Part shown: in pieces, positions 52,209 through 55,855 of the stretch
How the letters are laid out: each line of letters opens with the position of its first letter
Numbering within the stretch: position 1 is the first letter of the stretch
NCBI RefSeq assembly: GCF_004765795.1
Contig: NZ_SBIV01000001.1
Location: 248,001-312,000, forward strand
From: Halorussus marinus
GTDB taxonomy: Archaea; Halobacteriota; Halobacteria; Halobacteriales; Haladaptataceae
Length of the DNA stretch: 64,000 nucleotides
Direction of reading: 5' to 3'
Made by a program: the position numbers and the translations under genes
The notes under the pieces: generated by a model
The model's input: only the letters and a program-made list of their open reading frames with translations
Database searches by the model: none
Told to the model about the DNA's origin: nothing

Positions 52209-53297
52209 CTACTCGAACACCGCGTCGAAGGCGTCGGCGCCCAGCGGGTCGTGGCGGCCCGCCGCGGCGTTCTCCTCGACGTGCTCGGGGCGACTCGCGC
52301 CCACCAGCGACGAGGTCACCCCCGGCGCGCTCCGGGCGAAGTTGATCGCGCGCTGGACGGTCGTCTCCCCGGCCAGTCGGTCGGCGACGTCGTCGGGGAG
52401 CGTCTCGGCGAGGTCCCCCTGCGCGATGCTCGCGCTCGTGAACACGTTCAGCCCCGCCTCGTGGGCGAACCAGAGCGCGCTCTGGGGTCCCTCGGGGCCC
52501 TCGTGGGCCTCGACGGTGAACGCGTCGGCCATGACCACGTTGAACGGGAGCTGGATCGCCCGAAAGTGGGTCGCGGTGTTCTCGGCGGCCTTGGCGGCCG
52601 CCCGGGCCCGCGAGACGATCTCGGGTAGCGAGAGGTACTCGTCGTCGCCGCCGGGCACCCGGAGGGCGTTCCACGTCGCGACCCCGTAGTTGCTGATGTC
52701 GCCGGCCGCCGCGCGCTCCTCGAGGCGGGTGAAGGCCGCTTCGAGCTGATCGTACACCGCCTCGCGCGATCGGGCTTCGAGCTGGGTCTCGGGGTTGTGG
52801 ACGTAGTAGAGGTCGATCTCCTCGACCCCGAGGTTCTCGAGCGATCGGTCGAGTTGCTCGTCGAGAAACGCCGGGGCGATGCAGTGGCTCCCGCGGGCGA
52901 GGTCCTCGCGGTCGACCAGCCCGGGTTCGACGAACTCCCGGCGGACGTACTCGCCGGGGTCGTCGGGGCGCTCGCCGTCGAAGGGGACGAACCCGCCCTT
53001 CGTGGAGACGAACGCGGCCTCGCGGGCGACGTCGGCGTCGTCGATCGCCCGGCCGACCGCGCGCTCGCTCCGCTGACACCGGTAGTTGATCGCGGTGTCG
53101 ATCACGTTGATCCCGGATTCGAGCGCGGTCTCGATCGCGTCGCGGTAGCGGGCGTCGACGGGGTCGGTGGGGTCGCCGAGGTAGGTGCCGACGCCGATCG
53201 AGGAGATCGCGAGGTCGTTGAACCGCCGGAAGTACGTTCGGCCGAAGTCGTCGCCGTGCTGGAGCTTGTACTCGTACGTGCCGTCGGCGGTGGCCAT
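52209..53297 (-). CDS. Aldo/keto reductase
   Basis: 362 residues of the AKR family: ISSIGVGTYLGDPTDPVDAR, VIDTAINYRCQRSERAVGRA (catalytic Asp and Tyr), AAFVSTKGGFVPFDG, IDLYYVHNPETQ (catalytic His), LNVFTSASIAQGDLAE. It reduces a carbonyl with NAD(P)H. It lies divergent from the iron-box region upstream of the cupredoxin lipoprotein, so it may share that control. Confidence 0.86.
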   Translation of the reverse strand: MATADGTYEYKLQHGDDFGRTYFRRFNDLAISSIGVGTYLGDPTDPVDARYRDAIETALESGINVIDTAINYRCQRSERAVGRAIDDADVAREAAFVSTKGGFVPFDGERPDDPGEYVRREFVEPGLVDREDLARGSHCIAPAFLDEQLDRSLENLGVEEIDLYYVHNPETQLEARSREAVYDQLEAAFTRLEERAAAGDISNYGVATWNALRVPGGDDEYLSLPEIVSRARAAAKAAENTATHFRAIQLPFNVVMADAFTVEAHEGPEGPQSALWFAHEAGLNVFTSASIAQGDLAETLPDDVADRLAGETTVQRAINFARSAPGVTSSLVGASRPEHVEENAAAGRHDPLGADAFDAVFE

Positions 53298-53367: not shown

Positions 53368-53383
53368 TTTAGGCTGGCCTAAA
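53368..53383. promoter_or_regulatory. Iron-box palindrome, site 1
   Basis: TTTAGGCTGGCCTAAA, a near-perfect inverted repeat of the TTAGG-CCTAA type bound by DtxR-family iron repressors (SirR/Idr in haloarchaea). It lies about 40-55 nt upstream of the lipoprotein ATG. Confidence 0.75.
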
Positions 53384-53401
53384 ACGGAACGTTTTTCAAT
53401 A

Positions 53402-53417
53402 TTTAGGTAAGCCTAAA
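53402..53417. promoter_or_regulatory. Iron-box palindrome, site 2
   Basis: TTTAGGTAAGCCTAAA, the second copy, ends five bases before the ATG at 53423. It would cover the region between the TATA box and the transcription start, where a bound repressor blocks initiation. Spacing to site 1 is 34 bases centre to centre. Confidence 0.75.
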
Positions 53418-53422
53418 ACAGT

Positions 53423-55855
53423 ATGGCGACGAACCGACGCGATCTGTTGAAAGCGGGATCGGCGGCGATCGCCGGCCTCCCGCTGGCCGGGTGTAGCGGC
53501 ATGCTCGAAGAGGGCGAGCGCACTACCGCGACCGAGACCACGGACGCCGACGCCTCGAGCGCGCCGGAGCCGGCCGCGGTCGCGGTCGCGGCCGAGTGGA
53601 ACGTCTACCGGGCGCTGGCCCGGGACGCGCTCGGAATCGGGCTCGCCGGGGCGTTCGATTCGAGCGCCCGGATCGCGGCCGACGCCTTCGAGAAGTTCGA
53701 GCGGGCCGGCGGCGAGTGGGGCGCCCACGAGGCGCTCGAAGCGACGGACGAGGACCGCTACGAGGGGTTCGAGGAGGCGCTTGGCCAGCTCCGACAGCGC
53801 GCCCGAGAGGGCAACGTCGAGGAGATGCGAGTGGAGGCCGACCTCGTCGACGACCACCTCGGGGCCGCACAGGCCGACCGCGCCGGCGAAGCGAACGCCG
53901 CCGCGCTCGATCTGCTCGCGCTCGGGTCGCGGGCTTCGACGGCCGCCGCGCTCGCCGGTGCGGGCGAGTTCGAGGCCGCCGCCGCGGTCGCTGGCGACGC
54001 CGCCGACGCCTTCGAGGAAGCCGATGCCCACGAGGCGCTCGAATCGGCCGACCGAGAGAGCTACGAGGCCTTCGAGGCGGCGCTGGACGGCGCGAACGCC
54101 GCGGCGACCGACGAGCGAGTCGAAGACGTCCGCGCCCGTGCCGACGCGGCCCTCGACGCCGCGGCGACCGGCGCCTCAGCGGTCGCCGACAGCGAGGCCG
54201 CGGCCGGTGCCGGCTACCTCGCCGCGATGCAGACCCGGGCCTACGACGCCGGGGCGCTGGCCTCGCTGGGCGGGCCCTCCACCGACTTCGCGCACGCGGC
54301 GGCGCTGAACGTCTACCGGGCGCGGGCGTACGATTCCGCGTGGCTGACCGCCCGCGGGGAGTCCGACCGCGCGACGCAGGTCGCCCGAGACATCTTCGCG
54401 CACTTCGAGGGCGCGAAGGCCCACGAGGCGCTCGAATCCGCCGATCAGGAGGCCTACGAGGGCTTCGAGGGCGCGCTGGAGGACCTCGCCGCGGCGGCCG
54501 AGAACGGCGACGCCGAGGCCGCCCGGGACGCCGCCGACGCGGTCGAGACCCACCTCCGGACCGGCGTCTCGTCGCTGGCGACCGAGACCCAGGCCGCCGT
54601 CCTCCAGGCCGCGTTCTTGCGGGCGCGGTTCGAGGACGCCCGCGAACGGTACGCGCTCGGCGACGGGGCGGCCGCCAAGAGCGTCGCTCAGGGCCTTTTC
54701 GAGCGCTTCGAGTCGGACCAACTGGGCGTCCACGAGGCGCTCGAAGGCGCGAGCGAGGACCTCTACGAGGCCTTCGAGCACGAGCATCTCCGGGAGGGCC
54801 TGATCCCGGCCTTCGGAGACGGCGACGACGAGGGCGTCGAGACGCACGCCGCGGGCGTCGAGGACGCGCTGTTCGAGTTCGAGACGATCGTCGCCGGCGA
54901 GCCGACGGTCAGCGCCGCCGAGAGCGGGCTGATGAGCGCTCGGGCGTTCGACGCCGCCGGCCTCTCGGCGCTCGGAGAGTCAGATCGCGCCCGGTCGGTC
55001 GTCGAGTCGACGTTCCAGCACTTCGAGCGAGGTGCCGGCGGTTTCCACGAGGCGCTCGAAGCCGCCGATCGGGACCTGTACGAGTCCTTCGAGCGCCGCC
55101 TGACCGCGGTCGGCGACGCGACCGAGAGCGGCGACGCCTACGCCGCGGCGACGGCGTTCGACGAGAAGGCCGTCGCCGCCATCTACGCGGTCGTGGCGAA
55201 CGCCGGCGGCGACTTCGGCGGCGCGGCCGCGACCGTCGCGCGCGACGCGTTCGCCGGGTTCGAGCAAGCGGCGGTCCACGAGCGCCTCGAATCCGCCGAT
55301 CGGGAGGCCTACGAGGCGTTCGAGGCCCGACTCGGCGATCTCGTCGACGCGCTGGAGGACGGGAGCGGCGTCTCGGACGCGCTCGCGGCGTTCGCGGACG
55401 CGGCGGTCCGCGCCGAGTTCGCGGTCGCCGGCGCACCCGACGCGGCCCCGGTCGGGGAGCGCGAGTCGGGCGACACCGAGACGGAACTGACCGGCGGCCC
55501 GAACGTCGTCGACGGCGTCCCCGAGGACGCCGATCACGTCGTCGAGATGACGGCGGTCTCGTTCGACCCGGCCGAACTGACCGTCGAGCGAGGCGACACG
55601 GTGGCCTTCGCGTTCGCCGAGGGCGAACCCCACTCGATCACCGCGTACGAGGACGACCTCCCCGAGGGGGCCGACTACTGGGCGTCCGGCGGTTTCGACG
55701 ATCAGGCGGCCGCGGAGGCTGGCTGGGAGAACGGGGAGGGCGCGGTCCAGTCCGGGCAGGCTTACGTCCGGACCTTCGAGGCGACGGGGACTCACGAGTA
55801 CTTCTGTATCCCCCACGAGGCCGCCGGGATGGTCGGGAGCGTCGTCGTCGAGTAG
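53423..55855 (+). CDS. DUF5059-like repeat lipoprotein with C-terminal cupredoxin domain
   Basis: 810 residues. A twin-arginine plus lipobox signal (NRRDLL ... LAGC, Cys24) predicts export and a lipid anchor. Six repeats follow, centred on His-Glu-x-Leu-Glu (His102, His203, His334, His437, His542, His619), each also ending in a Tyr-Glu-x-Phe-Glu stretch. The last 100 residues are a blue-copper domain with ligands His737, Cys795, His798 and Met803. It is preceded by two iron boxes. Role inferred: iron-controlled electron transfer or metal handling on the outer face of the membrane. Confidence 0.85.
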   Translation: MATNRRDLLKAGSAAIAGLPLAGCSGMLEEGERTTATETTDADASSAPEPAAVAVAAEWNVYRALARDALGIGLAGAFDSSARIAADAFEKFERAGGEWGAHEALEATDEDRYEGFEEALGQLRQRAREGNVEEMRVEADLVDDHLGAAQADRAGEANAAALDLLALGSRASTAAALAGAGEFEAAAAVAGDAADAFEEADAHEALESADRESYEAFEAALDGANAAATDERVEDVRARADAALDAAATGASAVADSEAAAGAGYLAAMQTRAYDAGALASLGGPSTDFAHAAALNVYRARAYDSAWLTARGESDRATQVARDIFAHFEGAKAHEALESADQEAYEGFEGALEDLAAAAENGDAEAARDAADAVETHLRTGVSSLATETQAAVLQAAFLRARFEDARERYALGDGAAAKSVAQGLFERFESDQLGVHEALEGASEDLYEAFEHEHLREGLIPAFGDGDDEGVETHAAGVEDALFEFETIVAGEPTVSAAESGLMSARAFDAAGLSALGESDRARSVVESTFQHFERGAGGFHEALEAADRDLYESFERRLTAVGDATESGDAYAAATAFDEKAVAAIYAVVANAGGDFGGAAATVARDAFAGFEQAAVHERLESADREAYEAFEARLGDLVDALEDGSGVSDALAAFADAAVRAEFAVAGAPDAAPVGERESGDTETELTGGPNVVDGVPEDADHVVEMTAVSFDPAELTVERGDTVAFAFAEGEPHSITAYEDDLPEGADYWASGGFDDQAAAEAGWENGEGAVQSGQAYVRTFEATGTHEYFCIPHEAAGMVGSVVVE

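Follow-up and report, generated by a model that had tools for sequence, protein, structure and literature searches.

The locus raises the question of which gene is controlled by two palindromes that bracket a promoter in a 64 kb stretch of Halorussus marinus DNA (64,000 nucleotides, referred to below as the window), and of the signal to which they respond. We consider it highly likely that the two palindromes form a paired operator of a DtxR-family metal repressor belonging to the haloarchaeal iron regulon, by which the core promoter would be blocked when iron is plentiful.

The palindrome pair and its gene

The features are collated below in window coordinates.

52209..53297, reverse strand: aldo/keto reductase (PF00248), divergent neighbour, regarded as not being controlled by the pair.
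53368..53383, no strand assigned: predicted distal operator palindrome TTTAGGCTGGCCTAAA, exact match; the distal site is kept in orthologues.
53384..53401, forward strand: probable core promoter with BRE-like ACGGAACG (53384-53391) and TATA-like TTTTTCAATA (53392-53401), assigned from the sequence and from orthologue conservation.
53402..53417, no strand assigned: predicted proximal operator palindrome TTTAGGTAAGCCTAAA, exact match, between the TATA box and the start codon.
53423..55855, forward strand: presumed controlled gene, encoding an 810-aa lipoprotein with an RR...LAGC signal (open reading frame, Pfam, alignment).
53582..55450, forward strand: DUF5059 domain, residues 54-676 (PF16502, E 5.6e-216; alignment; AlphaFold).
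55541..55852, forward strand: C-terminal cupredoxin domain, residues 707-810 (PF00127, E 1.8e-15; alignment).

On inspection of the window sequence, both palindromes were found to be exact and 16 bp long, with TTAGG/CCTAA half-sites. The initial annotation had described a pair 34 bases apart, the second palindrome ending five bases short of the ATG and the first lying just upstream of the TATA region, and the coordinates agree with this layout throughout: the spacing is 34 bp from start to start (which is also the centre-to-centre distance), five bases (53418-53422) separate the proximal palindrome from the ATG at 53423, and the distal palindrome is located directly upstream of the BRE. The 18 bp gap between the two is taken up by ACGGAACG-TTTTTCAATA, a plausible BRE and TATA box, and the predicted sites abut or overlap the core promoter or the start codon region. 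When the window was searched with TTTAGGNNNNCCTAAA, the palindromes at 53368 and 53402 were the sole matches even with up to two mismatches allowed (0.10 expected from shuffles).

Promoters of DUF5059 genes were gathered from relatives and from the window genome, giving 37 sequences, 34 of them distinct. The proximal palindrome was kept in all 37, 3-8 bp before the ATG, and was perfect in 35; the chance rate of such a match in shuffled upstream DNA was 0.0003. The distal palindrome, 33-37 bp upstream, was recognised in 32 of the 37 promoters when up to one mismatch was tolerated and in 35 when up to two were; where it deviates, it usually does so at base 3 of one of its half-sites (CCAAA, CCGAA or TTTGG). 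Both sites were perfect only in the window genome and in L035. Of the ten columns that make up the proximal half-sites, nine were invariant across the 34 distinct promoters and the remaining one was T in 32. Also conserved were the distal half-sites and a T-rich step resembling a TATA box immediately before the proximal site (1.4-1.8 bits at two positions), but not the DNA upstream of the distal site. No distal site was present at 34-37 bp in two of the 37 orthologues (L068 and L071), a point against the paired operator. A perfect site is found in these two about 125 bp before the ATG of the DUF5059 orthologue.

The reductase and the DUF5059 gene are divergent and have a common intergenic region, so that the distal palindrome might serve the reductase, the two sites then controlling two genes and not forming one operator. 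The spacing of the pair is, however, kept in 32 of the 37 promoters (35 if a distal site with two mismatches is accepted), although the reductase adjoins the DUF5059 gene in only 6 of the 37 loci; in addition, 70 bp separate the distal site from the ATG of the reductase, as compared with 1-13 bp for typical sites of the regulon. Because the pair is kept while the reductase is so rarely adjacent, the pair is assigned to the DUF5059 gene, and service to the reductase is regarded as highly improbable.

Sites in the genome and in relatives

Perfect TTAGGNNNNCCTAA sites were counted at 19 places in the genome, as against two for a reversed-pattern control. Sites with one mismatch numbered 10 (29 places less the 19 perfect ones), fewer than the 33 of the control (35 less 2), and were therefore left out of the evidence. 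AT-rich intergenic DNA slightly favours words of this kind, which would suit an account of the pair as chance palindromes without function; that account is at odds with the 0.10 matches expected in the window even at two mismatches, with the 19 to 2 excess of perfect sites genome-wide and with near-invariance in the 34 distinct promoters. Since the sites are conserved, a chance origin is already refuted, and the probability left to it is negligible.

In the window genome, many of the perfect sites have their last base 1-13 bp ahead of an ATG. Among the genes that follow these sites are those for four siderophore-type binding proteins (Peripla_BP_2), a ferric-type ABC operon (SBP_bac_6-type binding protein, permease and ATPase), SufC and DUF7551/DUF7552 proteins; further perfect sites have genes for an ABC ATPase, FAD oxidoreductases and other proteins in their vicinity. 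Judged by its content, the predicted regulon behind the TTAGGNNNNCCTAA sites is an iron regulon. The perfect site at L016:4624-4637 stops one base short of the sufC ATG, and Fe-S cluster assembly may for this reason be under the same control as the DUF5059 gene; a DtxR-family gene (L028) follows about 4 kb further on.

Three other sites are recorded here for their surroundings. Two perfect sites 20 bp apart (L018:5167-5200; G000:C1:719666-719699) lie 3 bp upstream of a DUF7552 start codon. The perfect site at L017:5843-5856, beside the ferric-type ABC operon, precedes a gene of the reversibly glycosylated polypeptide family (PF03214) by 18 bp. Another, at L026:14203-14216, is positioned just before a small CxxC-containing open reading frame, near a ferritin-like (Dps-type) gene on the opposite strand.

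At a spacing of 15-45 bp (gaps of 1-31 bp), perfect pairs were detected in 41 of the 59 genomes searched, and pairs in which CCNAA was allowed as the distal half in 38 of the 59; the control pattern gave 0 in both searches. Among the 75 perfect pairs listed, 50 had a spacing of 34-37 bp, 24 of 20-21 bp and one of 26 bp, no other spacing being represented. The 34-37 bp class encloses a core promoter, and the 20-21 bp class recurs in many relatives. Genes in relatives with the proximal site of a pair just before the start include those for Peripla_BP_2 proteins, an SBP_bac_6-type protein and siderophore aminotransferases. Two plasmids were searched as well, pNRC200 of Halobacterium salinarum and one of Haloferax larsenii. 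In H. salinarum NRC-1, the diaminobutyrate aminotransferase/iucA promoter of the siderophore cluster carries two perfect sites 35 bp apart, and on the Haloferax larsenii plasmid a pair 36 bp apart precedes the homologue. The suggestion that the same pair be sought before related genes was thus borne out, both by the DUF5059 orthologue promoters (32 of 37 with both sites at no more than one mismatch each) and by siderophore genes of relatives.

Published expression data from Haloferax volcanii point the same way. According to parts of the report on an endA CRISPRi knock-down (PMC7714728), iucA, iucB, iucD, the genes for two iron(III) transport proteins, and HVO_1228 all rank among the ten that were most induced. 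HVO_1228 is annotated as DUF5059 and was induced by log2 4.2; the authors do not discuss it in those parts. The siderophore operon or cluster of H. volcanii is induced by iron starvation (PMC7407949). On the other side, the main text of an iron-starvation proteome of this organism names no DUF5059 protein (PMC11349517). The reading of the TTAGG-CCTAA palindromes as DtxR-type iron operators, as first proposed from the window alone, gains support from the regulon content, the conservation of the pair, the H. salinarum siderophore promoter and the co-expression of HVO_1228.

Candidate regulators, metal and mode of action

Three DtxR-family paralogues are encoded in the genome, each with PF01325 and PF02742. 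L027 (240 aa) comprises DNA-binding, dimerisation and FeoA domains, whereas L028 and L029, of 142 aa and (as read) 167 aa, are shorter and resemble Idr. L027 is the best-conserved candidate regulator and resembles Mn/Fe-type regulators. Its gene is preceded, at a distance of about 14 bp, by a site with one mismatch (G000:C1:348135-348148), which suggests autoregulation.

The metal was considered separately. Met10 of DtxR is a metal ligand position; L027, which begins with VMEDYLKAIY, has Asp at this position and scores best against MntR models, so that the sequence of the regulator leaves iron versus manganese unsettled. Both features would suit an operator of a DtxR-family protein that responds mainly to manganese instead of iron, and a family member of Deinococcus radiodurans has been described as a dual Mn/Fe regulator (PMC3327659). 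Against a manganese response, the regulon contains genes for the binding and the synthesis of siderophores, for ferric-type transport and for SufC, and no manganese transporter was present among the genes scanned. Regulon content does point to iron as the probable co-repressor, and a mainly manganese-responsive operator is judged unlikely.

Under the preferred reading, repression by an iron-loaded DtxR-family protein, a repressor dimer would occupy the proximal site between the TATA box and the start codon, where a leaderless or nearly leaderless transcript is likely to begin, and a second dimer would occupy the distal site just upstream of the BRE. The two dimers would enclose the 18 bp core promoter and keep RNA polymerase, and perhaps TBP/TFB, from assembling there. 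Upon iron starvation the repressors would be released, and the lipoprotein would be made together with the siderophore uptake genes.

Archaeal activators work from a position immediately upstream of the BRE. The distal site has exactly this location, and the sites might accordingly activate, with a regulator upstream of the BRE helping to recruit TFB/TBP. In the orthologue promoters, however, it is the distal site that is degenerate, and invariance is seen at the proximal site. The latter lies between TATA and start codon, and a protein bound at this point would hinder the polymerase, as described for MDR1 and LrpA (PMC2995911); activation is therefore thought very unlikely, and repression is retained.

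The known haloarchaeal DtxR-family iron regulon (Idr/SirR/TroR) has the same elements, namely DtxR-family genes, operators before fhu-type siderophore transporters and siderophore synthesis genes, and palindromes at promoters. The bacterial iron box is a 19 bp overlapping repeat bound by two dimers; DtxR/IdeR boxes have the same TTAGG...CCTAA half-sites, whereas two separate palindromes of 14-16 bp, 34 bp apart, are present here. MDR1 of Archaeoglobus fulgidus, also of DtxR type, has three adjacent operators, in contrast with the two that enclose the BRE and TATA box in the window. This metal-dependent repressor allows TBP/TFB to bind and blocks RNA polymerase (PMC2995911), and the position of the proximal site fits such a polymerase block. 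The string TTAGGNNNNCCTAA also occurs in the IdeR literature (PMC8464063), and the "ferR regulon signal" that Leyn and Rodionov described in 2015 is cited in PMC11349517. The kind of system is already known; what is added is the DUF5059-cupredoxin gene as a conserved and apparently tightly controlled member, together with the fixed layout of the pair. This promoter layout, in which two palindromes 34-37 bp apart enclose BRE and TATA, with a second class at 20-21 bp, can be used to read haloarchaeal iron regulons.

The DUF5059-cupredoxin lipoprotein

The designation of the downstream gene as a cupredoxin lipoprotein held up, with DUF5059 and cupredoxin domains both recognised by Pfam. Plastocyanin is among the matches of the cupredoxin domain, and the type-1 copper ligands that define a blue copper protein (His737, Cys795, His798 and Met803) were invariant in eight aligned orthologues. 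The DUF5059 part consists of tandem helical units, in five of six of which the motif F..FE...HE.LE..D...Y..FE recurs. The second of the six units is without the conserved Glu/His motif in the aligned orthologues.

AlphaFold modelled 498 of the 810 residues of the whole protein at pLDDT >=90, and a two-unit DUF5059 fragment was predicted with pLDDT 95. In Foldseek searches with DUF5059 no match was returned at E <=0.001; generic helical bundles ranked best, and PsbQ-like single bundles were matched with a TM of target of 0.74-0.75. Single DUF5059 repeats, searched against Pfam at lax thresholds, returned DUF5059 itself and otherwise insignificant matches only. Kinship with EfeO/FTR1 was considered because of the cupredoxin and the His/Glu motifs. 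An EfeO/imelysin-like iron-binding protein was rejected on the fold comparison (Foldseek E 1.6 for EfeO and 1.5 for imelysin). FTR1/Efe-type iron uptake was likewise unsupported, since the genome has no PF03239 match and hence no FTR1 permease as a partner.

Because the pair precedes this gene across relatives and also precedes iron-uptake genes, the lipoprotein is very probably one of the proteins with which the cell responds to iron starvation. A function can be proposed only tentatively, and we hold it possible, if somewhat doubtful, that the protein has a hitherto unrecognised role in the acquisition or sparing of iron by haloarchaea. At the cell surface, iron or a ferric chelate might be bound by the repeated Glu/His-bearing helical bundles and undergo redox chemistry at the attached copper centre; alternatively, the copper protein might stand in for an iron-containing carrier during starvation. 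If so, the paired operator, near-invariant at the start site and weaker upstream, would represent control as tight as that of siderophore uptake.

Halocyanin HcpG of Haloferax mediterranei likewise combines DUF5059 with a type-1 copper domain. It is catalogued as a copper protein, and iron control is not proposed in the part of PMC9240420 that describes it, whereas here a predicted iron-type operator pair is found at the promoter. DUF5059, a family of unknown function filed under halocyanins or copper proteins and conserved across many haloarchaeal genera, would thereby be placed in the iron-starvation response, and this placement therefore offers a direct experimental handle on its role. In two of the genomes (G114:C3:234210-236077 and G086:C38:7174-8960) the DUF5059 match falls into two pieces, and these genes may be broken or frameshifted.
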